From Crossiella sp. SN42 (GTDB lineage Bacteria > Actinomycetota > Actinomycetes > Mycobacteriales > Pseudonocardiaceae), in the NCBI RefSeq assembly GCF_023897065.1, contig NZ_JAMHIV010000020.1:124001-188000 (forward strand): a stretch of DNA of 64,000 nucleotides, given 5' to 3'. The notes below the pieces were generated by a model. That model was not told the DNA's origin, searched no databases, and was given only the letters and a program-made list of their open reading frames with translations. Both the position numbers and the translations under genes were made by a program. Positions 5,088 to 45,404 of this stretch are shown here, one piece after another; the first letter of the stretch is position 1; each line of letters begins with the position of its first letter.

Positions 5088-6692
5088 TCAGCCGAAGTCA
5101 CGGCGACGGAGCCCGGCCACCCCCGCGCTCACCAGACCGGCCGCGATCACGGCGAACCAGAGCAGCGGAGCGAGCGCGAAGTCGGCGCTCGGCAGCGCTG
5201 GGGTCTGGGCGAACGGGGAGATCCGCATGACGCTCTCGCCCACGCCGCCGTAGGCCACGGCGAACTCGAGGAGGAAGCACAGCCCGAGCGCGGCGTAGGC
5301 GGCGGACGCGGCGAAGCGGGGCGCCAATCCGTACAGCGCCGCGGCGATGGCCGCCAGCACCAGGACCGAGGGCGCCCTGACCACGGCAGCGCCGAGCAGT
5401 GGCAGCAGCTCGCCTGCCAGGTCACCGGTCGCGAGGCCGTAGACAAGGCCCATCCCGAACCCGAGGCCGACCATGACGGCGACCGTGCCCGCCGCGGTCA
5501 CGAGCAGGTGCCCGCCGAGCCAGCGCAACCTGCTGACCGGTCCGCTGAGGACGGTGGTGGCGCCGGTGGACAACTCCTCGGCCCGCGCCCGCAGGGTCGC
5601 CTGGATCGCGTAGATCGTCACCACCTGGCTCAGCAGGTAGAGCATCAGCCCGAAGAAGCTGTCCACCGGGCGCCCGCCGCCACCCATCTGCTCCATCAGG
5701 TCACGCAGTGCCTGGCTCTCGCCGACCTGGTCGGCGATGGTGTCGGCGGTGGTGCCCAGCGCGGCGCCGAACGCGGTCATGGCGATCGTCCAGGCGGTCA
5801 GCGTGCCGCGGTGCAGCCGCCAGGCCAGGGCCAGCGCGGACCGCAGCCGGGGCGCGGCGGTGGCCGGGCCGAGCCGGGCCGGGAAGATCCCGGCGCCGAG
5901 GTCACGGCGCGCGGACACCGCGTACGCCGCGGCCACGAGCAGCGCGACCAGCCCGGCGACGAGCAGCAGCGGCCACCAATGGTCGCCCGCGAAGGGGCGC
6001 ATCGCCTGGGTCCAGCCGAACGGGGACAGCCACCGCAGCCACGAGGACTCGCTCGCGTCGGCGATCGCCCTGATCGCGTAGCAGAACCCCACACCCGCGG
6101 CGGCGAGCCCGATGGCGACACGCGAACTCGCGGTCAGCTGCGCGGCGAGCGCGGCGAGCGCGGCGGCGACGCAGCCGGCTCCCGCGAAGGACAGGGCCAG
6201 CACCAGCGAACCGCCCACGGGAAGACCCTGCGCGGCGAAACCGAGTGTCATCACCACGGCCGCACCGAGATTGGCGGCGAACGCCGCCAGCAGCGCCGCG
6301 GTCAGGCCCGCGTGCCTGCCCACCACGGTCGAGCCGAGCAGTTCGCTGCGGCCGGACTCCTCCTCCGCCCTGGTGTGCCGGACGATCAGCAGCAGGCTCG
6401 CCAGCGACAGCAGCAGCGCGACCTGCCCGCGGATCCGCCAGGCACCGATCCCCGCCTCGGAGGCGTCGAAGATCGGACCGATCATCATCAGCTGCGCCGG
6501 GTTGCCGTTGGTGGTGCCGAAGAACGCGAGGCGATCCGCCTCGGTCGGGTAGACCCCTTGCACCGACGCCAGCACCCCGATCGCGAACAGGGCGGAAAGG
6601 CCGAACCATGCCGGGATCCGCACCCGGTCCCTGCGCACGATCAATCGGACGAGCCCAGCGGTGCCGGTCAGCGCGGTCAGTGGGGCGGTCAT
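5088..6692 (-). CDS. ABC-2-type exporter permease (large, two-lobed)
   Basis: A 534-residue hydrophobic protein starting at ATG 6692, which overlaps the ATPase stop (ATGA). Two homologous-looking halves each open with a charged segment ([51 protein letters not shown]) followed by about six membrane helices, giving about twelve in total. [14 protein letters not shown] and [29 protein letters not shown] are the cytoplasmic loop motifs found in large actinobacterial ABC-2 permeases associated with antibiotic export (tetronasin-resistance type). It should form an exporter with the ATPase upstream. Substrate is unknown; drug efflux is inferred from family and from its location on a probable transposon. 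Confidence 0.85.
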
Positions 6693-7612
6693 CGGGCCGC
6701 CACCCCCTGCGCGGCGTGCTCGCCGGACAGCTCGTCTCCGTAGTGCCGTAGGAACATCTCCTCCAGCGTGGGTGGCTGGCTGACCAGGCTGTGGATACCA
6801 GCCTCGGCGAGCTTCCGCATCAGCTCCGCCAGCGCGTCGCCGTCGACCTGGCAGTGCACGCGTGGGCCCTCCACCGCCAGCGCGTGCACCCCGGGCAGGT
6901 TCTCGAGCCGGGGCACCACCCCTGCCAACTCCGCGGTGACCGTGGTGCGAGTGAGCTGGCGCAGCTCGGTAAGCGTGCCGGACTCCACGGTGCGCCCGTG
7001 CCGGATGATGCTGACCCGGTCGCACAACGCCTCGACCTCGGACAGGATGTGGCTGGACAGCAGCACCGTCCGCCCGCGGTGGCGTTCCTCGGCGACGCAC
7101 TCCTGGAACACCGCCTCCATCAGCGGATCCAGCCCCGAAGTGGGCTCGTCGAAGACCAGGAGCTCCACATCGGACGCCAGCGCGGCGACGAGGGCCACCT
7201 TCTGCCGGTTGCCCTTCGAGTAGGTGCTGCCCTTCTTGCGCGGATCCAGCTCGAACCGGTCCAGCAGCTCGGCCTTGCGCCGCTCGTCGGCCCCGCCGCG
7301 CATCCTGCCGAGCAGGTCGATCACCTCCCCACCGGTCAGGTTCGGCCACAGCGTCACGTCGCCCGGCACGTAGGCCAGCCGACGGTGTAGCTCCGTCGCG
7401 TCGGCCCACGGGTCGCCGCCGAGCAGCCGCGCCTGACCGTGATCCGCCCGCAGTTGGCCCAGCAGGACACGGATGGTCGTGGACTTCCCCGCGCCGTTCG
7501 GGCCGAGGAAGCCGTGCACCTCGCCGGCCAGGACGGTCAGGTCGAGACCGTCGAGCGCCCTGGTCCGGCCGAACGCCTTGACCAGCCCGGACACCGAAAT
7601 CGCATTCGTCAT
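6689..7612 (-). CDS. ABC transporter ATP-binding protein (drug-exporter type)
   Basis: A 307-residue ATPase from ATG 7612. The Walker A is GPNGAGKST, the signature [11 protein letters not shown] (a common exporter variant of LSGGQ), the Walker [13 protein letters not shown], and the H-loop SSHIL. The C-terminal ~90 residues ([19 protein letters not shown]... [12 protein letters not shown]) form the accessory domain seen in DrrA-like polyketide-drug exporters. It heads a two-gene operon with the permease (4-bp overlap) and is divergent from a GbsR-like regulator across a 93-bp gap that holds a 21-bp inverted repeat near the ATG. This geometry suggests repression by that regulator and ligand-induced efflux. 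Confidence 0.92.
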
Positions 7613-23517: not shown

Positions 23518-24879
23518 ATGGACGATGCGCTGCGCGGTGCGCTGACCGGGCTGGCGGAGAATCCCGCGGCGCCACCGGACGTGCTGCTCCGGCTGGCCGC
23601 TGAACCATTGGCCGCGTCGCGGATGGCTTGGCGGGAGGCGCTGCCGGAGGAGGTGGTGGAGCGGCTGCTGGCCACCGGTGGCGTACGGGTCGCACTGGGG
23701 CTGGACAGCCGGTCGCGGTCGGAGCTGACCAGGCAGCGAATCGCGGCGCATCCGGAGGCCGGGGTTCGCGGTGCCCGCCGTACGTTCGTCGAGGACTCGA
23801 TTCGGCACGGGGTTCGGGTCGGGGTCGAGAGCCTGGCGTGGTACGCCGGTGCGGGCGGACTCCTCGGGTTGGCCCGGCACGAGGATCCGGTGTTGCGGGC
23901 AGCGGTCGCCCGGTCCTGGGAAGGCATGCCGGAGGGGGTGCGCCGGGAGTTGCTCGTCGACTCCGATCCGCGGGTCCGACAGCTGGCGGCGGGTTACCCA
24001 CATCCGCCGGTTCCCGAGGACCTGCGTTCCCTCCTGCTGGCCGATCCGGCTACCAGGAGGGAAGTGGCCGCTTACGCCGTGCTGACACCGGAGGCGGTGC
24101 GGGAGGGCCTGGCCGGTGACGAGGACCTGCGGGGCAGCATGGCGATCAACCCGACCTTGCCCGCGGCCGCGCGGGGCCGGCTGGAGGCGGATCCGAGCCC
24201 GTACGTGCGGGCCAAAGTCCTGCTCCGCCAGGACCTGTCCGAAGACCGCCGGCGGCTCGGGTACGCAGCGCTGGCCGAGGCGGGAACAGAGGAGTTCGAC
24301 GATGTCTGGATCGCGCTGACCGGATTGGAGTTCGAGCGACCGTCCTGGCTGGCGGATCTTCCGCTCGCGGACCGGGTCGGTTACCTGGACTCACCGATCC
24401 CGTGCTTCCGCCGGACCGCCGCATCGTCGCCGGACTTGCCGCCGGAGGTGTTGCGGCGCTTGGACGAGCACCCGGACGTCGAAGTGCGGCGGATCGTCGC
24501 CCGCAGGCCGGACTGCCCGGGCGAGGTGCTCGAACGACTGGTCATCGAGCACGGCGAGCACGCCAAGACCCGGCCGCTGCTCATCGAGCACCCGAACTTC
24601 CCGCCCTCGGCCTTCGCCAGGCTGGCCACCGCCACGGCACCCGACCGGCGAGCCCTTGCCGCGCACGGCGCCGAGCTGCCGGGCGTGACCCTGGCGGCCT
24701 TGGCCCGCGATCCCGAAGCGCATGTCCGTGCGGCCGCCGCCCGCAACCCGCGCACTCCGGTAGCGGCGCTGGTGGCACTGCTGGCCGACGAACCGGCAGC
24801 CGCCCAAGCCGCCGGAGCGAACCCCGGCCTGCCGGTCGCGGACATGTGCGCGGTGCTCGACCGGGCTGGTTTGCAGTGA
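23518..24879 (+). CDS. Leucine-rich-repeat-variant (LRV) repeat protein, first copy
   Basis: A 453-residue protein made of ~24-residue helical repeats, for example LTGLAENPAAPPDVLLRLAA, ASSPDLPPEVLRRLDEHPDV, VRRIVARRPDCPGEVLERLV, LIEHPNFPPSAFARLATATA and ARNPRTPVAALVALLADEPA. The NPxxPxxVLxxLA pattern is that of LRV/HEAT-like solenoids. There is no signal peptide, membrane helix or catalytic motif, so a scaffold or protein-binding role in the cytoplasm is likely. An almost collinear paralogue follows after 13 bp. The partner protein is not evident from the neighbours (APH upstream, MarR downstream). Confidence 0.78.
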   Translation: MDDALRGALTGLAENPAAPPDVLLRLAAEPLAASRMAWREALPEEVVERLLATGGVRVALGLDSRSRSELTRQRIAAHPEAGVRGARRTFVEDSIRHGVRVGVESLAWYAGAGGLLGLARHEDPVLRAAVARSWEGMPEGVRRELLVDSDPRVRQLAAGYPHPPVPEDLRSLLLADPATRREVAAYAVLTPEAVREGLAGDEDLRGSMAINPTLPAAARGRLEADPSPYVRAKVLLRQDLSEDRRRLGYAALAEAGTEEFDDVWIALTGLEFERPSWLADLPLADRVGYLDSPIPCFRRTAASSPDLPPEVLRRLDEHPDVEVRRIVARRPDCPGEVLERLVIEHGEHAKTRPLLIEHPNFPPSAFARLATATAPDRRALAAHGAELPGVTLAALARDPEAHVRAAAARNPRTPVAALVALLADEPAAAQAAGANPGLPVADMCAVLDRAGLQ

Positions 24880-24892
24880 GGGGGAACAGCTG

Positions 24893-26230
24893 ATGCACGG
24901 CGCGCTGACCGGACTCGCGGAGAACCCCGCGGCGCCACCGGACGTGCTGTTCCGCCTTGCCGCTGAGCCCTCGGTCGCGGGCCGCCTGGCCTGGCGGCGG
25001 GAGCTGCCCGATCCGGTGGTCGAGTGGCTGCTCGCGCACGACGACCCGGACATCGCCTTCGCCCTGGACTCCCCGTTCCAGTCCGAGACCACGCGGCAGC
25101 GCATCGCCACCCACCCGGACCCCCGGATCCGCGAGTCACGCCGGACCAGCATTGAGGACGACATCCGCAACGGTGACTGGGTGACGTCGGCGGATCTCGA
25201 GTTCTACGGCGGGCTGGTCACCCTGGCCCGGCACCAGGATCCGGTGTTGCGGGCGGCGGTGGCGCGGTCTTGGGTGGAGATGCCTGAGGAGCTGCGGCGG
25301 GAGTTGCTGCTCGACCCGGATCCCGCGGTCCGGGAGCTGGCCGCGGGGGAGGCGCATCCGCCGGTGCCCGCGGATCTGCTGCCCCGGTTGCTGGCCGATG
25401 GGGCCACCCGGCAGCGGGTGGCGGCCTACGCGCCGTTGACGCCGGCGGCGGTGCGGGACTGCCTGGCCGGGGACGAGGACCTGCGGGCCGAGCTGGCGGT
25501 CAACCCGGAGCTGCCGCGGGCGGCGCGGGATCAGCTGGCCGCGGATCCGAGTCCGTGGGTGCGGGCCAAGGTGCTGCTCCGCCGGGACCTGGCCGTGGAC
25601 GACCGCGAGCGGTTGTACCGGGAGCTGGTGGCCGCGCAGCGGGAGGAGCACGACGAGGTGCGGTTCGCGCTGGACAACCTGGAGCACGACCGGCCGTCCT
25701 GGCTCGCGGAGCTGCCCCTGGAAGACCGGATCGGGTACCTGGACTCGTCGATCGCGTGTTTCCGGCGGGCCGCCGCGTCTTCGCCGGATCTGCCGCCGGA
25801 GGTGTTGCGGCGCTTGGACGAGCACCCGGATGTCGAGGTGCGGCGGATCGTCGCGCGCCGGCCGGACTGCCCCGGTGAGGTGCTCGCGACGCTGGTCATC
25901 GAACATGGTGAGCGGCGGGAGGAGCCGTTGCTGGTGCGGCATCCGAACTTCCCGGCTGAGGTGTTGCCCCGGCTGGCCGCTGCCGCGCAGCCGCACCGGC
26001 GGGCGCTGGCCGCGGCCCGTGACGACCTACCTGAGGAGTGCCTGGTGCGGCTGGCCCGTGATCCAGCGGCGTCCGTGCGGGTGGCGGCGGCCCAGCACCC
26101 GCGGATTCCGTTGGCGGAGTTGGACAACTTGCTCAGTGACGTTGAGGTTGAGGTGGTGGAGGTGGCCGCGGCGAACCCGGTGCTGCCAGTGGCGGCCATG
26201 CGGGCGTTGCTGGACCGGGCGGGGTTGTAG
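24893..26230 (+). CDS. Leucine-rich-repeat-variant (LRV) repeat protein, second copy
   Basis: A 445-residue paralogue of the preceding gene with the same order of repeats and long identical stretches (GALTGLAENPAAPPDVL, LPPEVLRRLDEHPDVEVRRI, VARRPDCPGEVL). ATG 24893 follows GGGGAACAGCTG and lies 13 bp after the first copy's stop; its TAG overlaps the MarR start codon, so the three genes form an operon. Divergence is concentrated in residues facing out between repeats (DRPSWLAELPLEDRIGYLDSSIACF versus ERPSWLADLPLADRVGYLDSPIPCF are near-identical, while 40-95 differ more). A tandem duplication with retained fold, possibly different partners, is inferred. Confidence 0.78.
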   Translation: MHGALTGLAENPAAPPDVLFRLAAEPSVAGRLAWRRELPDPVVEWLLAHDDPDIAFALDSPFQSETTRQRIATHPDPRIRESRRTSIEDDIRNGDWVTSADLEFYGGLVTLARHQDPVLRAAVARSWVEMPEELRRELLLDPDPAVRELAAGEAHPPVPADLLPRLLADGATRQRVAAYAPLTPAAVRDCLAGDEDLRAELAVNPELPRAARDQLAADPSPWVRAKVLLRRDLAVDDRERLYRELVAAQREEHDEVRFALDNLEHDRPSWLAELPLEDRIGYLDSSIACFRRAAASSPDLPPEVLRRLDEHPDVEVRRIVARRPDCPGEVLATLVIEHGERREEPLLVRHPNFPAEVLPRLAAAAQPHRRALAAARDDLPEECLVRLARDPAASVRVAAAQHPRIPLAELDNLLSDVEVEVVEVAAANPVLPVAAMRALLDRAGL

Positions 26231-36366: not shown

Positions 36367-37692
36367 TCAGGTGAGTGCGGGCTTGTCCAGAGGCGGTTCG
36401 GCGGCCAGCTCGGCCTTGCTCGTCTCCGGGGCGATGACCAGCGCGACCACGGTCAGCGCCAGCGTCGCGGCCACGTACACGCCGATGGCCACCCAGCTGC
36501 CGAAGGACTGCAGCAGCGCCACCGAGATCAGCGGCGCGATCGCCCCGCCGAGCACCCCGGCCAGCTGGTAGCCGAGGCTGGCCCCGGTGTAGCGCAGCTT
36601 GGTGCTGAACAGCTCGGAGATGAAGGCCGCCTGCGGGCCGAACATGGCCGCGTGCGTGACCAGCGCGACGATGGTGGCCAGGATGATCAACGCGGTGGAG
36701 CCGGTGGCCAGCAGCGGGAAGAAGGCGAACACCCACACTCCCGCGCCCACCGCGCCCGCCAGGTAGACCGGGCGGCGGCCGTAGCGGTCCGACAGCGCGC
36801 CGAACAGCGGGATGAGCGCCAGCTGGCAGGCCGAGGCGATCAGCACCGCGTTCAGCCCGACCTGCCGGTTCACCCCCACCGTGTCCTTGAGGTAGGTGAG
36901 GATGAACAGGGTGAAGGTGTAGAAGGCCACGTCGGTGCCGATGCGCGCGCCGATCGCGGTGAGCAGCTCGCGCGGGTGCTCGCGGAAGACGTCGAACAGC
37001 GGCAGCTTCGCCTTGGCCTTGGTCTTCTCCACCTGGGTGAACAGCGGGCTCTCGGCGATGCTGCGGCGGATCCAGAAGCCGACCAGCACCAGCAGCCCGG
37101 AGAGCAGGAACGGCACCCGCCAGCCCCAGTCCAGGAACTGGGCCTCGGTCAGCGTCGCCGACATCACCCCCATCACCGCGGCGGCCAGCAGGTTCCCGGC
37201 CGGCACGCCGACCTGCGGCCAGCTCGCGTTGAGCCCGCGTTTGTCCGGCGCGCCGTGCTCCAGGGTCATCAGCACCGCGCCGCCCCACTCGCCGCCCAGG
37301 CCCAGGCCCTGCACGAACCGCAGGAACACCAGCACCACCGGGGCGGCCGCGCCGATCTGGGCGTGCGTGGGCAGCAGGCCGATGGCGAAGGTGGCCACGC
37401 CCATCAGCAGCAGCGTGATCACCAGGACGTTCTTGCGGCCCACCTTGTCACCGAAGTGTCCGAAGATGGCCCCGCCGACCGGCCGGGCGATGAAGCCCAC
37501 CGCGTAGGTGGCGAAGGCGAGCAGGGTGCCGGTCAGCGGGTCCGAGCTGGGGAAGAACAGCTTCGGGAACACCAGCGCGGCGGCGGTGCCGTAGAGGAAG
37601 AAGTCGTACCACTCCAGCGAGGTGCCGATCAGGCTGGCCGCGATGACCTTGCGGCCGGACCGGGCGGTCGGCGTGGGCGCTGAGCTGCTCAT
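36367..37692 (-). CDS. MHS-family (MFS) metabolite:H+ symporter, candidate 5-oxoproline importer
   Basis: A 441-residue transporter with twelve predicted helices, starting at ATG 37692 (AAAGGAC upstream; overlaps the pxpC stop). GTSLEWYDFFLYGTAAALVFPKLFF is the MHS N-terminal signature, RPVGGAIFGHFGDKVGRK the loop-2 MFS motif, and GEWGGAVLM the helix-4 motif of ProP/ShiA-type symporters. MHS carriers move organic acids and betaines with protons. Coupling to pxpB-pxpC and proximity to a pyroglutamyl-peptidase-like gene make 5-oxoproline the most likely substrate, by inference only. Confidence 0.88.
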   Translation of the reverse strand: MSSSAPTPTARSGRKVIAASLIGTSLEWYDFFLYGTAAALVFPKLFFPSSDPLTGTLLAFATYAVGFIARPVGGAIFGHFGDKVGRKNVLVITLLLMGVATFAIGLLPTHAQIGAAAPVVLVFLRFVQGLGLGGEWGGAVLMTLEHGAPDKRGLNASWPQVGVPAGNLLAAAVMGVMSATLTEAQFLDWGWRVPFLLSGLLVLVGFWIRRSIAESPLFTQVEKTKAKAKLPLFDVFREHPRELLTAIGARIGTDVAFYTFTLFILTYLKDTVGVNRQVGLNAVLIASACQLALIPLFGALSDRYGRRPVYLAGAVGAGVWVFAFFPLLATGSTALIILATIVALVTHAAMFGPQAAFISELFSTKLRYTGASLGYQLAGVLGGAIAPLISVALLQSFGSWVAIGVYVAATLALTVVALVIAPETSKAELAAEPPLDKPALT

Positions 37693-38624
37693 CGGCGTGT
37701 CCTTTCGACGCACTGGAAACGGAGTCGTTGACCGGGTCTGGCCTGGGCCGCCTTGGGCAGATCCTCGTCCACCACCACCGCGATCACCGGATAGCCGCCG
37801 GTGACCGGGTGGTCGGCCAGGAAGAGCACCGGCTGCCCGTTCGGGGGAACCTGGAGCGCGCCGCCGACCATGCCCTCCGGCGGCAGCTCACCCTGACGCG
37901 CCCTGGTCAGCCGCGGTCCGGCCAGCCGCACGCCGATCCGGTTGCTGGCCGGGGTGACCTGGTACGGGCCGGAGCACAGGGCGGAGGCGGCGTTCGCGGT
38001 GAACCAGTCCTGCCGGGGACCGAGCAGCACCCGCAGCACGGGTTCGGCGGAAAGTTCCGCGACCGGCGCGATGTCCACGATCGGGTCACCGGCGATCTCC
38101 CGGCCGATCGGGATCTTGGTCCCTCGGACGAGTGGCTCGGGGCCGATGCCGGAGAGCAGGTCGCTGGCCCGGGAGCCGAGCACCGGCGGCAGGTCCAGGC
38201 CGCCGCGGACGGCGAGGTAGCTGCGCAGGCCGCGGGCCGGGCGGCCGATGCGGACCGTGGTGCCGGCGGCGACGTAGAAGGGGGCGTGCGCGGCGGCGGT
38301 GCGCGGGCGGGGGCGGTCGGCGGCCGGCGGTGCCGAGCCGGTCCCGGGGTGCGGCGGCGCGGTGGCCGGGCACGGCGGGCCGAGCTGGATCTCCGCCGGG
38401 GCCCCGGTCAGCGCTGCCCACGCGCCGCGGTGGAACCGCAGGTGCAGGCCGCCCAGTGTCAGCTCCAGCCCCGCGGCGGTCTCGGCGTTGCCGACCAGGC
38501 GGTTGGCCAGTTTCAGCGCGGGCGCGTCCGCCGCGCCGGAGCGGCCGACGCCCATCGCGGCCAGTCCTGGCCGCCCCAGGTCCTGGACCAGGGTGAGCAG
38601 GCCGGGGTCGAGGACCTCGATCAT
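37689..38624 (-). CDS. pxpC: 5-oxoprolinase subunit PxpC
   Basis: A 311-residue protein of the biotin-dependent-carboxyltransferase-like (KipA/PxpC) family: IEVLDPGLLTLVQDLGRPGLAAMGVGRSGAADAPALKLANRLVGN is the family's conserved opening, and NRIGVRLAGPRLTR, LPPEGMVGGALQVPPNGQPV and HPVTGGYPVIAVV its C-terminal signatures. ATG 38624, seven bases after AGGAGG, is preferred over GTG 38627. With PxpB (and PxpA) it hydrolyses 5-oxoproline to glutamate using ATP. It carries a proline/pharma-like low-complexity insert near residues 85-115 (GPPCPATAPPHPGTG...), unusual for the family. No pxpA is visible in the window. Confidence 0.9.
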   Translation of the reverse strand: MIEVLDPGLLTLVQDLGRPGLAAMGVGRSGAADAPALKLANRLVGNAETAAGLELTLGGLHLRFHRGAWAALTGAPAEIQLGPPCPATAPPHPGTGSAPPAADRPRPRTAAAHAPFYVAAGTTVRIGRPARGLRSYLAVRGGLDLPPVLGSRASDLLSGIGPEPLVRGTKIPIGREIAGDPIVDIAPVAELSAEPVLRVLLGPRQDWFTANAASALCSGPYQVTPASNRIGVRLAGPRLTRARQGELPPEGMVGGALQVPPNGQPVLFLADHPVTGGYPVIAVVVDEDLPKAAQARPGQRLRFQCVERTRR

Positions 38625-39241
38625 CACGCCACCTCCTGGAAGCGCACCCTGGTGCCCGCGGTGAGCAGGCCGGGCCGGTCGCGGGCGGTGTCCCAGAGCA
38701 CCAGGTCGGTGCGGCCCAGCAGCCGCCAGCCGCCGGGGCTGGACCGCGGGTAGATGCCGACGAACTCATCCGCGATGGCCACCGCGCCCGCGGGCACGCT
38801 GGTGCGCGCGGTGTCCCGGCGCGGCACCCGCAGCGCCGGGTCGAGGCCGGTGACGTAGGCGAAGCCGGGGGCGAACCCGCAGAAGCTGACCGTGTAGTCC
38901 CCGGCCAGGTGGCGGCGCACCACCTCCGCGCCGGAGAGGCCGGTGAGCGCGGCGACCTCGGCCAGGTCCGCGCCGTCGTAGCGCACCGGGACCTCGACCG
39001 TGCGGGCCGGGGCGCGCATCCCGGGCGGCGGGGCGTGCTGGTCCAGGTGTTCGCGCAGGGCGGCGAAGGAGGTGGCCGCGGGGTCGAAGCGGACCAGCAC
39101 GGTGCGCGCGGCGGGCACCAGCTCCAGCACCCCGGCCGGGGGCTGCTGGGTGAGCAGCGCGTGCAGGGCGTGCGCCGCCTCCCCGTCGGCCAACTCCACC
39201 AGGGCCGCTGAACTGCCGAAACGCCGGACGTCGAGTTCCAC
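38624..39241 (-). CDS. pxpB: 5-oxoprolinase subunit PxpB
   Basis: A 205-residue KipI/PxpB (allophanate hydrolase subunit 1-like) protein from GTG 39241. Signature segments are SAALVELADGEAAHALHALL, VLVRFDPAATSFAALREHL, VEVPVRYDGADLAEVA, YTVSFCGFAPGFAYVTGLDP and SVPAGAVAIADEFVGIYPRSSPGGWRLLGRT. It is translationally coupled to pxpC (shared base at 38624). First gene of the pxpB-pxpC-transporter operon and divergent from a GntR regulator across 122 bp containing a TTGTTC-N7-GAACAA dyad. Confidence 0.92.
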   Translation of the reverse strand: MELDVRRFGSSAALVELADGEAAHALHALLTQQPPAGVLELVPAARTVLVRFDPAATSFAALREHLDQHAPPPGMRAPARTVEVPVRYDGADLAEVAALTGLSGAEVVRRHLAGDYTVSFCGFAPGFAYVTGLDPALRVPRRDTARTSVPAGAVAIADEFVGIYPRSSPGGWRLLGRTDLVLWDTARDRPGLLTAGTRVRFQEVA

Positions 39242-39300
39242 GGTGCACCCCCGGGTGTGGCTCAGGTCACGCTACGATGTGGTACGAGTCAACATAAGGA

Positions 39301-39319
39301 TTGTTCAACAAAAGAACAA
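39301..39319. promoter_or_regulatory. Inverted-repeat operator for the GntR regulator/pxp operon
   Basis: TTGTTC-aacaaaa-GAACAA has perfect 6-bp arms and lies between the divergent pxpB and GntR starts in an unusually AT-rich patch (39290-39320). Position and symmetry fit a GntR/FadR dimer site that controls both transcription units; the assignment is inferred. Confidence 0.55.
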
Positions 39320-39363
39320 GGGGCTTGTGCCATGATTTTCTTGAGCACAACGAGGAGGTCACG

Positions 39364-40062
39364 GTGAGCGACGCGCCCCTGGCGGACCTGACGGCCGACC
39401 GCGAGCTGCTGGGTCGCAGCTCCACGGCCGAGCGGGTCGCGGGCATCCTGCGGGACCGGATCATCGCCGGGTTCTTCCATCCCGGTGAACGGCTGTCCGA
39501 GGAGGCCATCGGCCAGGCGCTCGGCGTCTCCCGCAACACCCTGCGCGAGGCCTTCCGCCTGCTCTCCCACGAACGCCTGCTCTCCCACCAGCTCAACCGC
39601 GGCGTCTTCGTGCGCACCCTGTCGGTGGCCGACGTGGTGGACCTCTACCGGGTCCGCCGGGTGGTGGAGTCCGCGGGCGTGCGCAACCTGCCCAACGCCC
39701 CGGAAGGCGGCCTGACCGCGTTGCGCGAGGCCGTCGCCGAGGCCGACCGCGCGGCCACCGACCGCCGCTGGCGCGATGTGGGCACCGCGAACATGCGTTT
39801 CCACCAGGCGATCGTGGCCCTGGCCGACAGTGGCCGCCTGGACGAGCTGATGCGCCAGCTGCTGGCCGAGCTGCGCCTGGTCTTCCTGGTGATGAACGAC
39901 CCCAAGGCCTTCCACGTGCCGTTCATGGCGGGCAACCGGGACATCCTGGAGCTGCTGGAAAAGGGCGAGGCCGACCGCGCCGAAGCGCTGCTGGTGTCCT
40001 ATTTGGACGAAGCGGAGCAGACCCTGGTGCGCGCCTACGCCCCGCTGGTCCCCGGCCCCTGA
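39364..40062 (+). CDS. GntR/FadR-family (FCD) transcriptional regulator
   Basis: A 232-residue protein from GTG 39364 with GGAGG five bases upstream. The winged HTH is residues ~20-85 (ERVAGILRDRIIAGFFHPGERLSEEAIGQALGVSRNTLREAFRLLSHERLLSH in pieces), the FCD domain follows with RRVVESAGVRNL, ANMRFHQAIVALADSGRLDELMRQLLAEL and a metal-site His in NRDILELLEKGEADRAEALL-type helices. FCD regulators bind small organic acids. It is divergent from pxpB, so control of 5-oxoproline use is the likely role. It ends 15 bp before the convergent STAND-like gene. Confidence 0.9.
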   Translation: MSDAPLADLTADRELLGRSSTAERVAGILRDRIIAGFFHPGERLSEEAIGQALGVSRNTLREAFRLLSHERLLSHQLNRGVFVRTLSVADVVDLYRVRRVVESAGVRNLPNAPEGGLTALREAVAEADRAATDRRWRDVGTANMRFHQAIVALADSGRLDELMRQLLAELRLVFLVMNDPKAFHVPFMAGNRDILELLEKGEADRAEALLVSYLDEAEQTLVRAYAPLVPGP

Positions 40063-40077
40063 GTGAGCACCCGCTGA

Positions 40078-43000
40078 TCAGGTCAGCGCCCGCACGAACG
40101 CCGAGCGCAACCGGTTGCCGTCGGCGATCACCTGCTGCACCACCACCTGCTTGCTCCGCGGATCCGCGCCCCGGCGCAGCAACTCCGGATCGGCCTGCCC
40201 GAAGTCCACCGGCCCGGTGACCCCGCGGAACAGGTTCGGCCCCGTGGTGGCGCGCAAGGCCGCGTACAGCTTGGCGCGGTCCGGCAGGTTGTGTTCGGTC
40301 CTGGCGCGTTCGATCGCGGTGAGCAACAGGTTCACCGCGTCGAAGGCCAGCATCACGTGGCCGTTGGGGCCGGAGCGGAAGGCCTGCGCGGCCTCGCCCT
40401 GTTCCTTCTGCGCGTCGGCGTGCTGGGTGAAGAACTGCTCGGCCTCACTGGGCGGGTTGCCGCCGGTGATCCGCCGCCAGCCGTCCTCGGTGGGGCCCAG
40501 CGTGGTGAAGTACAGTCGTCCGTCCACAAAGGACACCCGGCGGGGGCGCTGCTGCTCGTTGCCTGCCAGGTCGGCGTAGCCGGCGGTCTCCAGCTGGGAC
40601 AGGTCGTCCGCGCCCAGCACCACGGTGTCCCGGTCGCAGTCGGACTCGTCCAGCTTCTCCATCAGGGTGGGCAGCTCGTTGGCGCGGCCGGAGTAGATCA
40701 GCAGCGGGGTGCGTCGGCGCTGGGCGGCCAGCTCGCACATCTCCTTGACCCTGGTGGCCAGCACGTTGCCGGTGTTGCTCTTGCCCGCCTCATACGGCTG
40801 CTCGACCGGCTCGCCCAGCCCGCTGCGGCGGCGCAGCAGCTCCTGCAGGTAGTCGTCCTTGAGGTCGGCGCTGTAGCGGTCGTTCGGGTCGTGCAGCAGG
40901 AACGGCTGGCGGGTGCGCAGCCGGGGCTCGGTGGTGGCGAAGGTGATCGCGGCCTCGGCCTGCCGCTTGTTCGGCGGCGCGATCCGGAAGAAGAAGTCCT
41001 TGCCGGTGAAGGCGTTCCCGGTCGGCGCGGAGGCCACCATCGGGATGCCCTGCCAGTGGCCGATGGCCGAACCGAGGATCTCCGCGGCCCGGATGGTGGA
41101 GTCCCTGGTCTGGCCCATGCCGCTGACCCCGACCACGGTCGGGTCGCTGTCCACCAGGGACTGGATCTTCTCCGCGGTGTGCTGGGCGAACTCGGAGTTG
41201 CCGCCGAAGTTGGCCAGCACCAAGCGAAGCAGGAAGGGCGGCTTGATGGTGGGGGTGTTGAACCGGTTCCAGGCGCGCTGGGCCAGGTAGGCCCCGCGCA
41301 GCTCGTTGACCCCCGCCGACAGGTCCCGGCGCGGGACCTCGTTGGCAGAGCTCAACATCGAGGCCACCACGATGGTCAGGTAGGGCCGCCGCCGGTCGTC
41401 GGTGCTGGGCCGGTCGGCCTCCCGGCGCACCTGCGCGTTCTGCTCGGCGACCAGGCGGCTCAGCTCGGCCACCTCGATGTCGTCGGGCAGGGTCTCGTTG
41501 GCGTTGTGCATGAAGTTGCCGATGCCGTCGGTGACCCCGTAGCACTCGCCCTGCGCGGACTTGGTCAGCATCAGGCTCGGGTCGAACACCGAGTCCAGCA
41601 CCCGGCCCGGCGCGAAGACCCCGTCCCGGTCGCAGTGCACCAGCTGGTGCCGCAGGTAGATCCCGCCGTAGCCGAGCAGCAGCACCGCCACCGCGGCCAC
41701 CGCGCTGCGCCGCAGCGTGTGCGGCGGCGGCCACACCGTCGGATACGGGTGGCGGTCCTCGCCGGCGCTGTAGGGAGGCAGCGCCGGCCCGGGCTCGGCG
41801 ATGGAGTTGTCCTCGGCCAGCCGGACCTGGTTGCGGTAGAACGACATCTGGTCGGCCACCGCGGGCTGACCGGCGGCGTCGAGGTTGCGGTAGGCGCGCA
41901 GCACGTCGTCGAAGAGCTCCGCGCTGCGCCGCACCGTGGAGGTGTTGGAGCGCAGCTTCCACACCGCGATCAGCAGCTCCTCCACCCGCCGCACCCGGGG
42001 CCAGTTCAACCGGCTGCGCAGCTGACGGCTGTGCCGCCAGCCCGGCGCCTCCGCGATCACCTCCAGGTCGGCCACCCACCGGCTGTCGCCCCTGGTCAGC
42101 CGGGAGGACAGGTGGCTGGCCACCACGTGCGTGTCGCCGAGGGCCAGCGCGTGGTAGAGCCGGTCGCCCTGGCGGCCCAGCATCGTGTAGTGGTTGCGCA
42201 GCTCGCGGTGCACGTGCTCGTACGGGTACTCCGCGCCCGCGCCGTGCGCGAGCAGCTGCGCGCCGAGCAGGTCGCGCAGCAGCGGGTGCAGCACGATCCA
42301 CCGGCCGTCGGCGCTGCGGTCGGCGAAGCTGTAGGTGGACAGCCTGCCCCAGATCTCCTCGGCGTCGCGGTCCGGCACCAGCCGCTGGATGGTGGCCAGG
42401 TCGAGCCTGCGCGGCGCGGCCAGCCGGGTCAGCAGCCTGCGGGTCTGCGCCCGCTCGGGCAGGTCGGAGCCGCGGAAGCGTTGCAGGAAGCGGACCAGCA
42501 GGTAGTCGCCGACCTTCTCATCCGGTTCGGCGGCGGCCTCCTCGCGCGGCACCCGCTGGGCGAAGACCGTGCGCACCGAGGGGATCACCCGGTCCCGCCG
42601 GTAGAGCCGGTCCATCACCTGGGTGGCCAGCCGGACCGCCAGCGGATGGCCCTTGGTCACCTCGTGCAGCTCGGCCACCAGCGCGGCGGAGCGGACCGTG
42701 GAGTCCCGGCTGCGGTTCCACTCGTGCAGGAACTGCCGGGTCTGGGCCAGGGTGAACGGCCGCAGCCGCACCGGCAGCACCGCGGCGGCGGCCGGGCCGT
42801 GGTTGGCCCGCGCCTGCTCGAAGCGCTGCCGCCAGCCGTGGTAGCGGGCGTGCGCGGCATCGGCCGGATCGAGGTCGTCGCTCTCCGGCGGCGGGATGTC
42901 CTGCTGGTCCGGGGTGGCCTGCTTGGTGGCCACCACCAGCAGCGGCACCTCCGGGTTGCGCAGCTTGGCCTCGGCGAGCAGCTCCAGCAGGTCGCTGACC

Positions 43001-43872
43001 GGCGGCTCGGGCGTGGTGCGGCCGGGCGGGAACAGGTTGACCTCGAAGGGGGACAACAGGTCCGCGCCGTCGAGCAGCAGCACGCAGTTGACCCGGCGCC
43101 GCCGCCTGCGGTGGCCCTTGTAGGCGCCGTCCAGATCGGCCAGGAAGGCGGCCACCAGCAGCCGGTCCACCACCAGCCGGTCCCGGCGTTCCTCGCTGCG
43201 CAGCAGGTGCCAGATCTGGGCGATGACCTCGTCCACCTTGCAGCCCTTGGCCAGTCCGAGCACGCCCTCCCCGGCCACCTTCTCGTACCAGCGCCAGGTG
43301 GCGGCGAACCGGCGCGGCGCGAGCAGCCAGCGGATCCGCGAGGGGGCCACCACGGCCAGCGTGGTCAGCCAGCCCAGCAGCGGCCTGGCCAGCCGGGTCA
43401 GCCAGTGCGGGGCGGGCGCGGACTCGGCGATCGAGCCGACCACGTCGGCGATCCGGGGCAGGCCGGTGAGCCGGTGCGCGAGCAGCTGGCGGGCCCTGCG
43501 GTGCGGGTCGCCGTCCTCCTCCGGCTCGGCCGCGGTGCTCTGGGCCAGCCGCAGCAGCTCGTAGCGGGGCAGCCGCATCCGTCCGAAGTGGACGTTCTGG
43601 TAGCGCCGGAGCTGCCCGAACACCGCGTCCAGCACGTCCCGGCAGGACTTGGAGCCGGTCTCGTCCAGGTCCACCCGCGCCAGCGGCACGTCCGGCCGGC
43701 AACGGCGCTCCAGGTGGTCCAGCAGCGTGGTCTTGCCGCTGCCGCCGGGCCCGTAGGCGACCACCAGCGGGAGCGGCCGCCGGGCCTTGCGGTCGATCAG
43801 CGAGGCCAGCAACGCGGCCGTGCTGTCCCGCCCCACCAGGCCGAGGTCAGGCTCCAACGCCACCAGTGACAC
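40078..43872 (-). CDS. STAND-like P-loop ATPase fused through one membrane helix to an extracytoplasmic type-1 periplasmic-binding domain
   Basis: A 1264-residue protein from GTG 43872 (GGGGGT upstream). Residues ~1-420 form a P-loop NTPase: VVAYGPGGSGKTTLLDHL (Walker A 41-48), CVLLLDGADLL (Walker B ~263-273), LLVVATKQ (sensor strand) and TKGHPLAVRLA (406-416, the GxPLA motif of NACHT/NB-ARC STANDs). Residues ~420-700 are helical with a winged-helix-like part (LHPLLRDLLGAQLL). One membrane helix lies at ~722-740. Residues ~745-1264 are a Leu/Ile/Val-type binding domain (TVVGVSGMGQTRDSTIRAAEIL, GIPMVASAPTGNAFTG, FFFRIAPPNKRQAEAAITF, LLHDPNDRYSADL). Topology would be N-in, C-out: an outside ligand sensor coupled to a cytoplasmic switch. 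Neighbours do not reveal the output. Confidence 0.8.
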   Translation of the reverse strand: MSLVALEPDLGLVGRDSTAALLASLIDRKARRPLPLVVAYGPGGSGKTTLLDHLERRCRPDVPLARVDLDETGSKSCRDVLDAVFGQLRRYQNVHFGRMRLPRYELLRLAQSTAAEPEEDGDPHRRARQLLAHRLTGLPRIADVVGSIAESAPAPHWLTRLARPLLGWLTTLAVVAPSRIRWLLAPRRFAATWRWYEKVAGEGVLGLAKGCKVDEVIAQIWHLLRSEERRDRLVVDRLLVAAFLADLDGAYKGHRRRRRRVNCVLLLDGADLLSPFEVNLFPPGRTTPEPPVSDLLELLAEAKLRNPEVPLLVVATKQATPDQQDIPPPESDDLDPADAAHARYHGWRQRFEQARANHGPAAAAVLPVRLRPFTLAQTRQFLHEWNRSRDSTVRSAALVAELHEVTKGHPLAVRLATQVMDRLYRRDRVIPSVRTVFAQRVPREEAAAEPDEKVGDYLLVRFLQRFRGSDLPERAQTRRLLTRLAAPRRLDLATIQRLVPDRDAEEIWGRLSTYSFADRSADGRWIVLHPLLRDLLGAQLLAHGAGAEYPYEHVHRELRNHYTMLGRQGDRLYHALALGDTHVVASHLSSRLTRGDSRWVADLEVIAEAPGWRHSRQLRSRLNWPRVRRVEELLIAVWKLRSNTSTVRRSAELFDDVLRAYRNLDAAGQPAVADQMSFYRNQVRLAEDNSIAEPGPALPPYSAGEDRHPYPTVWPPPHTLRRSAVAAVAVLLLGYGGIYLRHQLVHCDRDGVFAPGRVLDSVFDPSLMLTKSAQGECYGVTDGIGNFMHNANETLPDDIEVAELSRLVAEQNAQVRREADRPSTDDRRRPYLTIVVASMLSSANEVPRRDLSAGVNELRGAYLAQRAWNRFNTPTIKPPFLLRLVLANFGGNSEFAQHTAEKIQSLVDSDPTVVGVSGMGQTRDSTIRAAEILGSAIGHWQGIPMVASAPTGNAFTGKDFFFRIAPPNKRQAEAAITFATTEPRLRTRQPFLLHDPNDRYSADLKDDYLQELLRRRSGLGEPVEQPYEAGKSNTGNVLATRVKEMCELAAQRRRTPLLIYSGRANELPTLMEKLDESDCDRDTVVLGADDLSQLETAGYADLAGNEQQRPRRVSFVDGRLYFTTLGPTEDGWRRITGGNPPSEAEQFFTQHADAQKEQGEAAQAFRSGPNGHVMLAFDAVNLLLTAIERARTEHNLPDRAKLYAALRATTGPNLFRGVTGPVDFGQADPELLRRGADPRSKQVVVQQVIADGNRLRSAFVRALT

Positions 43873-44832: not shown

Positions 44833-44888
44833 CCGGTGCTGGGGCGGCGGCGGTCCCGTCTCCGTCGCCGCCCCCGCCTCACCGGTCA
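44830..44888. terminator. Long bidirectional terminator between kelch and LPMO genes
   Basis: An outer 9-bp stem TGACCGGTG (44830-44838)/CACCGGTCA (44880-44888) encloses an inner 13-bp stem GGGGCGGCGGCGG (44841-44853)/CCGTCGCCGCCCC (44862-44874, one mismatch). The outer arms include the stop region of both convergent genes. Confidence 0.8.
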
Positions 44889-45404
44889 GCTCACCTGCAG
44901 GTCGACACAGTTGTAGAAGGCCATCGCGGTGTCGTAGATGTTCCAGATGGCCAGCACCTTCTGGCGGCCCGAGTGGTTGCCCAGGTTCACGTTGTGCGAG
45001 ACCGTGGCCCCCGGGGTGGCGCCGTTGTCGTTGAACGTGGCGACCTTGGTGCCGCCGACGTAGTACTCCCAGGTGGAAGTGCGGTGCCGGGCGGTCAGCC
45101 GCCAGTTGAAGGTGACGTTGCGGCCCACCGAGGTGGCCCGCCAGCCCTTGCTGTCGTTGTTCAGCTCGGCGAAGCGGCCCACGTTGCCGTGGCAGTTGCG
45201 CAGCCCCTTGGGGCCCTCCACGCTCTGCGGCTCGTACTTGATGTCACCACAGGAGACCGTGCCCGCGGCGCACTGCGCCTGACGGCTCGGCGGGTTGGAG
45301 ATGTAGCCGTGCGCGCTCGCCTCCGTGGCCGGCAGGGCGACCAACATGGCAGGCACCATGCCGATACCGGCGGCGGCCGCGACGAGCTTGCTTTTCACGC
45401 TCAT
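44886..45404 (-). CDS. Lytic polysaccharide monooxygenase, AA10 (chitin/cellulose-active)
   Basis: A 172-residue secreted protein from ATG 45404 (AAGGAG). The signal peptide ends ...ATEASA, so the mature protein starts with His32, the first ligand of the copper histidine brace; His107 (WRLTARHRTSTWEYY) is the second. HGYISNPPSRQAQC, CGDIKYEPQSVEGPKGL and NHSGRQKVLAIWNIYDTAMAFYNCVDLQ are standard AA10 segments. It has no carbohydrate-binding module. Together with the DasR site upstream this argues for chitin oxidation under N-acetylglucosamine control. A terminator separates it from the kelch gene. Confidence 0.95.
   Translation of the reverse strand: MSVKSKLVAAAAGIGMVPAMLVALPATEASAHGYISNPPSRQAQCAAGTVSCGDIKYEPQSVEGPKGLRNCHGNVGRFAELNNDSKGWRATSVGRNVTFNWRLTARHRTSTWEYYVGGTKVATFNDNGATPGATVSHNVNLGNHSGRQKVLAIWNIYDTAMAFYNCVDLQVS

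Follow-up and report, generated by a model that had tools for sequence, protein, structure and literature searches.

The window considered here, a stretch of 64,000 nucleotides from the soil bacterium Crossiella sp. SN42 (contig NZ_JAMHIV010000020.1, positions 124,001 to 188,000), carries on its minus strand a gene whose product combines, in this order, a P-loop nucleoside triphosphatase (NTPase), a MalT-like winged-helix and helical region, a membrane helix, and a type-1 periplasmic-binding (Venus-flytrap) domain (Table 1). The protein would be a single-pass receptor in which binding of a ligand outside the cell drives a cytoplasmic switch of the STAND type, and the probability of this reading is put at about 0.6. 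Judged by homology it is no singleton, being one clade of a large, widespread and barely annotated family of actinomycete receptors. A preliminary description of the same DNA had placed an NTPase, a helical middle, a membrane helix and a binding domain in this one gene, and both the reading frame and its full-chain relatives confirm that arrangement.

The open reading frame is real, encodes 1264 amino acids and begins with GTG. A second GTG three codons on is the likelier start, since orthologues begin there and a G-rich stretch lies ahead of it. On the opposite strand there is an open reading frame of 1192 amino acids (40291-43869), taken as an artefact of high GC content, the minus strand being the one supported by homology and by the codon score. 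Whole-chain relatives within the genus, one of them from Crossiella sp. S99.2, show 93, 92 and 82% identity. The values in four other genera are 57, 51, 47 and 48%, and in a fifth genus the relative comes in two pieces with 45 and 52%. A scan of genome contigs yielded only one relative, and whole-genome searches were then used. The window genome itself contains one single-chain and one two-gene member of the family.

The N-terminal domain is best called STAND-type, and a winged helix probably follows it. D268, T316 and G408 are invariant across 15 aligned relatives, and residues 408-410 form what we take to be the GxP motif of STAND proteins. Pfam models of AAA_16 (E 1.1e-6) and nSTAND_NTPase5 (E 2e-4) match the window protein, both under their cut-offs. 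When a profile of 15 sequences covering the region after the NTPase is compared with PDB sequences, MalT is the first of six matches (E 0.0076), and it is colinear over winged helix and arm. The NCBIfam model of MalT matches 5 of the 15 members, with a best value of 4.2e-4 that is far under its cut-off. These motifs and the MalT match agree with the STAND features that had been noticed earlier, and the survey of orthologues for GSGKTT and GHPLAV proposed at that time gave the conservation listed in Table 1. Neither an effector domain nor a DNA-binding domain was found in the window chain.

Conservation supports a predicted single-pass topology with the N-terminus inside and the C-terminus outside. 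The segment proposed at about residues 722-740 is the top hydrophobic segment in all 13 single-chain members on an insertion scale. On the Kyte-Doolittle scale it ranks first in seven of eight members, L037 (loci of relatives are given L numbers) placing an internal segment first. One refinement is needed to the single helix first described: a second, weaker hydrophobic stretch, residues 158-176, sits within the NTPase. Net charge is higher before the helix than after it in 56 of 61 members, as the positive-inside rule would have it (13/13 single-chain, 27/27 two-gene, 15/20 P-loop-less and 1/1 orphan). Four cysteines are kept in every one of the 61 ectodomains, and the window ectodomain has no others. 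The pairing of these cysteines, together with the positive charge before the helix, is the reason for placing the C-terminal domain outside, as had been suggested. Five P-loop-less relatives (L190, L191, L192, L194 and L202) hold two clear membrane segments in the region corresponding, by eye, to the NTPase; with two segments there, the C-terminus would still face outside. The paired segments of these five recall KAP NTPases.

The best PDB matches of a profile built from 21 ectodomains are LivJ-type amino-acid-binding proteins (E 6.5e-13, 3.5e-11 and 6.7e-11), with LivJ itself (3.5e-6) and the N-terminal domains of glutamate receptors lower down. The best match, 4gnr, covers profile positions 139-452 of 479, which by homology would give the two-lobed fold, and the type-1 sensor domain first proposed is thus recovered. 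Three of the four cysteines are also nearly invariant among 134 near-complete ectodomains, a larger set. The column of the first holds 68 cysteines and 66 gaps, the alignment not having settled it; the pattern of the C777 motif was matched in 116 of the 134 (18 did not match), and in 112 of those 116 the preceding 60 residues include a cysteine. Thr 951, Tyr 1000 and Asp 1089 align with residues that presumably line the ligand pocket of LivJ and its kin, and Thr 922 lies near one. Such residues make an amino-acid-like ligand plausible for most members, although not for all. The equivalent residues in mGlu1 are Ser165, Thr188, Asp208, Tyr236 and Asp318, according to an excerpt of PMC2680970.

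STAND module and flytrap occur together. In 100 related genomes there are 27 STAND genes of the family at E<=1e-25 (28 rows of matches, one gene giving two). Nine of these are fused to a flytrap, 17 have an adjacent flytrap match at 1e-25, and the last has one adjacent at 5.3e-39. Conversely, 26 of the 44 flytrap places in those genomes carry a STAND gene of the family, the other 18 having been examined in part. Where the two are separate genes (27 loci of the first set), the pair overlaps by 4 bases in 11 cases and by 7 in one, and the intervening gap is never more than 380. A tree of the 61 ectodomains places the single-chain members in one clade (support 100/100), and a branch supported at 95/95 sets the two-gene members to one side. 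Three changes on that tree are required for the P-loop-less type, the odd rows being L180 and the orphan L154.

The helix and flytrap are also found on quite different modules. Genes were called in 142 fetched loci, 138 of which hold 142 flytrap genes (L159, L195, L213 and L215 gave none). Because strong matches and odd lengths guided the choice of loci, the counts of architectures are not frequencies. The STAND module is in the same chain in 14 cases and is encoded by a separate adjacent upstream gene in 53. A further 48 flytraps are fused to or lie beside a P-loop-less relative of the NTPase, some of them (e.g., L216 and L194) assigned by weak profile matches. Ten, all from genomes of a single taxonomic family of the class, are joined to TIR, TIR-kinase, TIR-NB-ARC, kinase or DUF4062 modules. 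Two lie beside a TIR-STAND gene, one beside a KAP-like NTPase gene, and 14 were left unclassified (L154, L201, L214, the second copy in L217, L223, L225, L230, L231, L233, L235, L241, L260, and L262 in two pieces). The TIR proteins of L220, L221, L243 and L196, with one membrane helix and an outer flytrap, have the layout of Toll-like and TIR-NB-ARC receptors with the chain order reversed. In L145 some 240 residues ahead of the STAND domain (6616-7335) resemble by eye a class III nucleotidyl cyclase; Pfam gave no cyclase match, and a cyclase is not claimed.

Table 1. Features of the window protein (positions in the window) and modules joined to the flytrap in relatives (positions in the locus named).
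Feature	Residues	Position	Strand	Basis
Whole open reading frame	1264 aa	40078..43872	-	likelier start GTG 43863
P-loop NTPase domain	~12-320	42913..43839	-	AAA_16 over residues 12-138; alignment of 15 relatives
Walker A, GPGGSGKTT	41-49	43726..43752	-	G..G.GK[ST] in 13/13 single-chain members
Hydrophobic stretch within NTPase	158-176	43345..43401	-	matches two-helix hairpin in some P-loop-less relatives
Walker B, LLLDGAD	265-271	43060..43080	-	D268 in 15/15
GHPLAV, presumed STAND GxP motif	408-413	42634..42651	-	G408 in 15/15, P410 in 12/15
Probable winged helix and first arm helices, MalT-like	475-589	42106..42450	-	weak: E 0.009, 0.0076, 0.0047
Presumed helical linker	~590-700	41773..42105	-	conserved in alignment
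Predicted membrane helix	722-740	41653..41709	-	hydrophobicity ranking across members
Ectodomain, type-1 periplasmic-binding / Venus-flytrap fold	747-1264	40081..41634	-	profile against PDB sequences
Cys 747	747	41632..41634	-	61/61 ectodomains
Cys 777	777	41542..41544	-	61/61; 131/134
Thr 922, close to LivJ Ser79 (position of gap uncertain by one)	922	41107..41109	-	S/T 60/61, 131/134
Thr 951, LivJ Thr102 in alignment	951	41020..41022	-	S/T 58/61, 126/134
Tyr 1000, LivJ Tyr150 in alignment	1000	40873..40875	-	Y 60/61, 118/134; any aromatic 131/134
Cys 1046	1046	40735..40737	-	61/61; 134/134
Cys 1079	1079	40636..40638	-	61/61; 132/134
Asp 1089, presumed pocket acid of LivJ-type proteins (4n0q alignment)	1089	40606..40608	-	D 56/61, 106/134
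TIR and kinase fused to flytrap		L196, 7104-10034		TIR_2 4.3e-25, Pkinase 1.1e-47
TIR fused to flytrap		L220, 6887-9298		TIR_2 2.7e-34
TIR and NB-ARC-like NTPase fused to flytrap		L221, 5377-8940		TIR_2 1.6e-25, NB-ARC 8e-4 (under cut-off)
TIR fused to flytrap		L243, 6554-9070		TIR_2 2.9e-8
Kinase without TIR fused to flytrap		L219		Pkinase 9.4e-53
DUF4062 fused to flytrap		L193, L234, L236, L238, L239		DUF4062, 1e-11 to 1e-13
Separate adjacent KAP-like NTPase gene		L185		8.9e-6, above cut-off
TIR-STAND gene directly downstream of flytrap gene		L251, 8402-9789		STAND part of the window protein's family, split over two open reading frames
TIR-STAND gene directly downstream of flytrap gene		L252, 5448-6917		STAND part in the window family, 1.8e-47

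The strongest argument for a receptor is this exchange: because one and the same helix-plus-flytrap unit is passed among different cytoplasmic modules, the unit is most readily seen as an input device that signals inward. The receptor reading already offered in the preliminary description is strengthened by the occurrence of the unit on Ser/Thr kinase, TIR and DUF4062 modules. In the mechanism envisaged, the outer flytrap would bind a small ligand, most likely an α-amino acid or some other compound bearing the same head group, and its closure would reach the STAND module by way of the single membrane helix and then the helical linker. The module would then exchange ADP for ATP, open, and oligomerize at the membrane. 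This switch may expose a docking surface, and the oligomer would engage an output encoded outside the window chain. In relatives the output would be built in, as TIR, TIR-STAND, Ser/Thr kinase or DUF4062 domains. The purpose may be nutrient sensing, development or immunity.

Several observations weigh against this reading. The statistics behind the STAND assignment are weak: the MalT value of 0.0076 comes from one sub-profile, another (A7) gave no MalT match among PDB sequences, the whole profile reaches MalT at E 0.11 behind 14 other rows, and no Pfam STAND model reaches its cut-off in the window protein. The helix of the window protein is modestly hydrophobic (1.60), and in two relatives, L039 and L180, the juxtamembrane segment is less hydrophobic than an internal one, which calls for caution there. 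AlphaFold models of the window protein, built on an alignment of itself and L003, have mean predicted local distance difference test (pLDDT) scores of 38.8 and 36.3. The pocket acid in the Asp 1089 column is missing in 28 of the 134 ectodomains. No output partner recurs next to the gene among 117 flanking genes of 60 loci. Finally, ATP binding is not general in the family, since all 20 P-loop-less members are without the P-loop and 9 of the 27 two-gene members have a changed one (Lys missing or Arg).

The distribution of the P-loop deserves a fuller account. A strict Walker A is present in 13/13 single-chain, 16/27 two-gene and 0/20 P-loop-less fused members. Two further two-gene members (L047 and L048) have it in an open frame ahead of the called start, three carry Arg in place of the Lys, and six are without it. 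The N-terminal domain of the P-loop-less members is nevertheless related to the NTPase; in a profile-profile comparison using 19 of the 20 sequences the probability was 99.8 (E 1.3e-28) over 317 columns, the match stopping before the GxP region. Complete conservation of the P-loop in single-chain members would also suit signalling in the outward direction, the cytoplasmic NTPase spending ATP on moving or resetting the outer domain for capture, release or a cell-wall task. One helix might be enough for such mechanical coupling, and FtsEX and MacB are known to transmit ATP-driven motion through the membrane. The P-loop-less relatives, however, could not drive their ectodomains in this way, and the same ectodomain is carried by kinase, TIR and DUF4062 modules; an outward direction therefore seems decidedly unlikely.

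Genes around the receptor gene were mapped with a simple codon-bias gene call, and neighbours other than the GntR/FCD regulator were named by eye. On one flank are the GntR/FCD regulator (39364-40062), 5-oxoprolinase-like genes and an MFS-type gene, and on the other a kelch-like gene and one resembling chitin-active enzymes. These neighbours are kept in two other Crossiella genomes and in L003 but not in the five other genera examined. The grouping of the regulator with two genes for 5-oxoprolinase-like subunits (37689-40062) and the MFS-type gene is thus confined to the genus, and the idea of a nutrient operon was dropped for that reason. No transporter permease or ATPase genes were recognized in the map around 40078-43872. 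The earlier remark that no permease or kinase partner is nearby holds: the nearest transporter gene is the MFS-type one, three genes away. The survey of orthologue neighbourhoods suggested with it found no recurring partner.

That survey took in 60 receptor loci and the 117 genes that flank them most closely. GntR is the commonest Pfam family, in 6 of the 117. Clusters within five genes, considered as candidates for conserved partners, reflect synteny among closely related lineages and not partners shared by the whole family. The two-gene receptors of L170-L173, L175 and L176, for example, belong to one genus and occupy the same place, adjoining genes that by eye resemble those for cytochrome c biogenesis. 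No transporter family with three or more members was seen among the best 25 of 168 Pfam families, sorted by members. This bears on a further explanation, a solute-binding protein tethered to the membrane that would supply or gate a transporter whose genes lie elsewhere, with the NTPase regulating uptake. The LivJ-type fold is what such a protein would have, a P-loop-less Streptomyces relative is named ABC transporter substrate-binding protein by the NCBI pipeline, and MFS-type and 5-oxoprolinase-like genes are close by in the genus. Against it stand the lack of a recurring transporter family, the absence of the MFS gene beside orthologues in the other genera examined, and the kinase and TIR fusions, which do not suit it; it is considered very unlikely.

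Two other features of the window may be mentioned. A small secreted protein encoded at 44886-45404 resembles, by eye, a chitin-active lytic monooxygenase, and it is kept in the genus. Two adjoining genes of alike sequence at 23518-26230 (starts GLAENPAAPPDVL...) are apparently a tandem duplication.

The family is widespread. In a phylum-wide sample of 396 genomes the ectodomain was found with E below 1e-50 at no fewer than 10 places in at least 8 genomes; a gap lies below these strong matches, and ordinary binding proteins start at 2.6e-14. At 1e-25 it occurs in at least 78 of 394 genomes of a class sample. At E<=1e-30 it occurs in at least 157 of 297 genomes of the window's own family and in at least 224 of 295 genomes of one large actinomycete genus, probably Streptomyces. 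These genome counts are lower bounds, the best few candidates per genome having been scored. Carriers include Streptomyces fungicidicus, Streptantibioticus cattleyicolor, and replicons of Embleya and Nonomuraea.

The modules found on or beside the flytrap ectodomain (TIR, TIR-STAND, TIR-NB-ARC, DUF4062, KAP-like and STAND) raise the question of immunity. Modules of these kinds are characteristic of conflict systems in bacteria, as stated in an excerpt of PMC7159879. The protein could be an immune-type receptor in which a danger or non-self signal from outside, e.g., metabolites of lysed neighbours, cell-wall fragments or phage-related changes, triggers dormancy or suicide through a STAND, TIR or kinase output. 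The best PADLOC model in the window protein reaches only E 0.073, the window protein is without an effector domain, and several clades of the family lie in conserved, ordinary neighbourhoods and not in mobile islands. A defence island was looked for and rejected: among the PADLOC matches listed (the best 25 by members) no family occurs in more than 2 of the 117 flanking genes, and the kinase-type models, one gene each, are generic. An immune-type receptor in this sense is unlikely. A broader proposal is made tentatively, and we would give it clearly worse than even odds. In filamentous actinomycetes the family may consist of transmembrane receptors for patterns or danger, each with a conserved outer flytrap that would read an amino-acid-like signal and that one membrane helix links to interchangeable immune-type modules (STAND, TIR, TIR-NB-ARC, TIR-kinase or DUF4062). 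Such receptors would be what bacteria have in place of Toll-like and TIR-NB-ARC receptors, monitoring the exterior of the cell.

Bacterial STAND and TIR proteins have mostly been studied as sensors of intracellular events. Here a ligand-binding domain on the outside is connected across the membrane to a STAND switch, and the domain is itself exchanged among STAND, TIR, kinase and DUF4062 modules. If the receptor reading is true, the family would offer a genetically simple system for the control of STAND or TIR activity by an outside ligand, and would let one ask whether surface receptors built like immune ones are used by multicellular bacteria. It would also offer a better name for proteins currently labelled substrate-binding proteins.

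Among known systems, KAP NTPases came into question on account of the hydrophobic stretch that the NTPase contains. Some relatives do have membrane segments there, and matches to the KAP family are weak (E 0.19 in the window protein, 7.9e-4 in L146). The curated model gives the window protein 11.4 bits against a cut-off of 20, and the assignment was rejected. In contrast to KAP proteins, the Walker B and GxP motifs here conform to those of STAND proteins, and the clearer KAP-like protein is a separate partner gene (L185).

The closest published statement found, within open-licence PubMed Central, is one sentence on a different system. In an excerpt of PMC7159879, Kaur et al. (2020) describe actinobacterial caspase proteins with about 50 variable C-termini, one of which consists of transmembrane helices and an extracellular periplasmic-binding domain, and another of a STAND module. 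The constant part of that system, as far as the excerpt goes, is the caspase with its EACC1 partner gene, whereas here it is the flytrap. The window chain has no caspase match in Pfam at E<=10, EACC1 itself not having been searched for. Excerpts of PMC8195603 and PMC7075850 contain nothing closer. Searches of the open-licence full texts of PubMed Central, preprints excluded, gave no description of a STAND or TIR domain joined to this flytrap ectodomain, although subscription papers or preprints might describe one.

MalT-type STAND NTPases share with the window protein the P-loop, Walker B and GxP and, probably, the winged helix and helical arm, in the same order. The sensor of MalT is a soluble C-terminal repeat, in contrast to the window sensor across the membrane; no DNA-binding domain was found with the latter, and many of its relatives are without a P-loop. 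LivJ and the Venus-flytrap receptors (mGlu, GABA-B, the ANP receptor and Venus kinase receptors) have in common with it the fold, judged by profile, and presumably also the pocket-like Ser/Thr, Tyr and Asp. In Venus kinase receptors the flytrap is tied by one helix to the signalling domain (PMC2680970, in excerpt). Unlike these receptors, the window protein has its sensor at the C-terminus, reversing the order, as well as an extra conserved pair of juxtamembrane cysteines, and a STAND module replaces the kinase, cyclase or seven-helix core.

The comparison with Toll-like and plant TIR-NB-ARC receptors concerns the relatives with TIR domains. The proteins of L220 and L243 combine an outer sensor, a helix and an inner TIR domain as Toll-like receptors do, and that of L221 combines TIR with an NB-ARC-like NTPase. 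These relatives, whose likeness is one of design and not of demonstrated descent, are bacterial, carry a flytrap in place of leucine-rich repeats, and have the opposite chain order.

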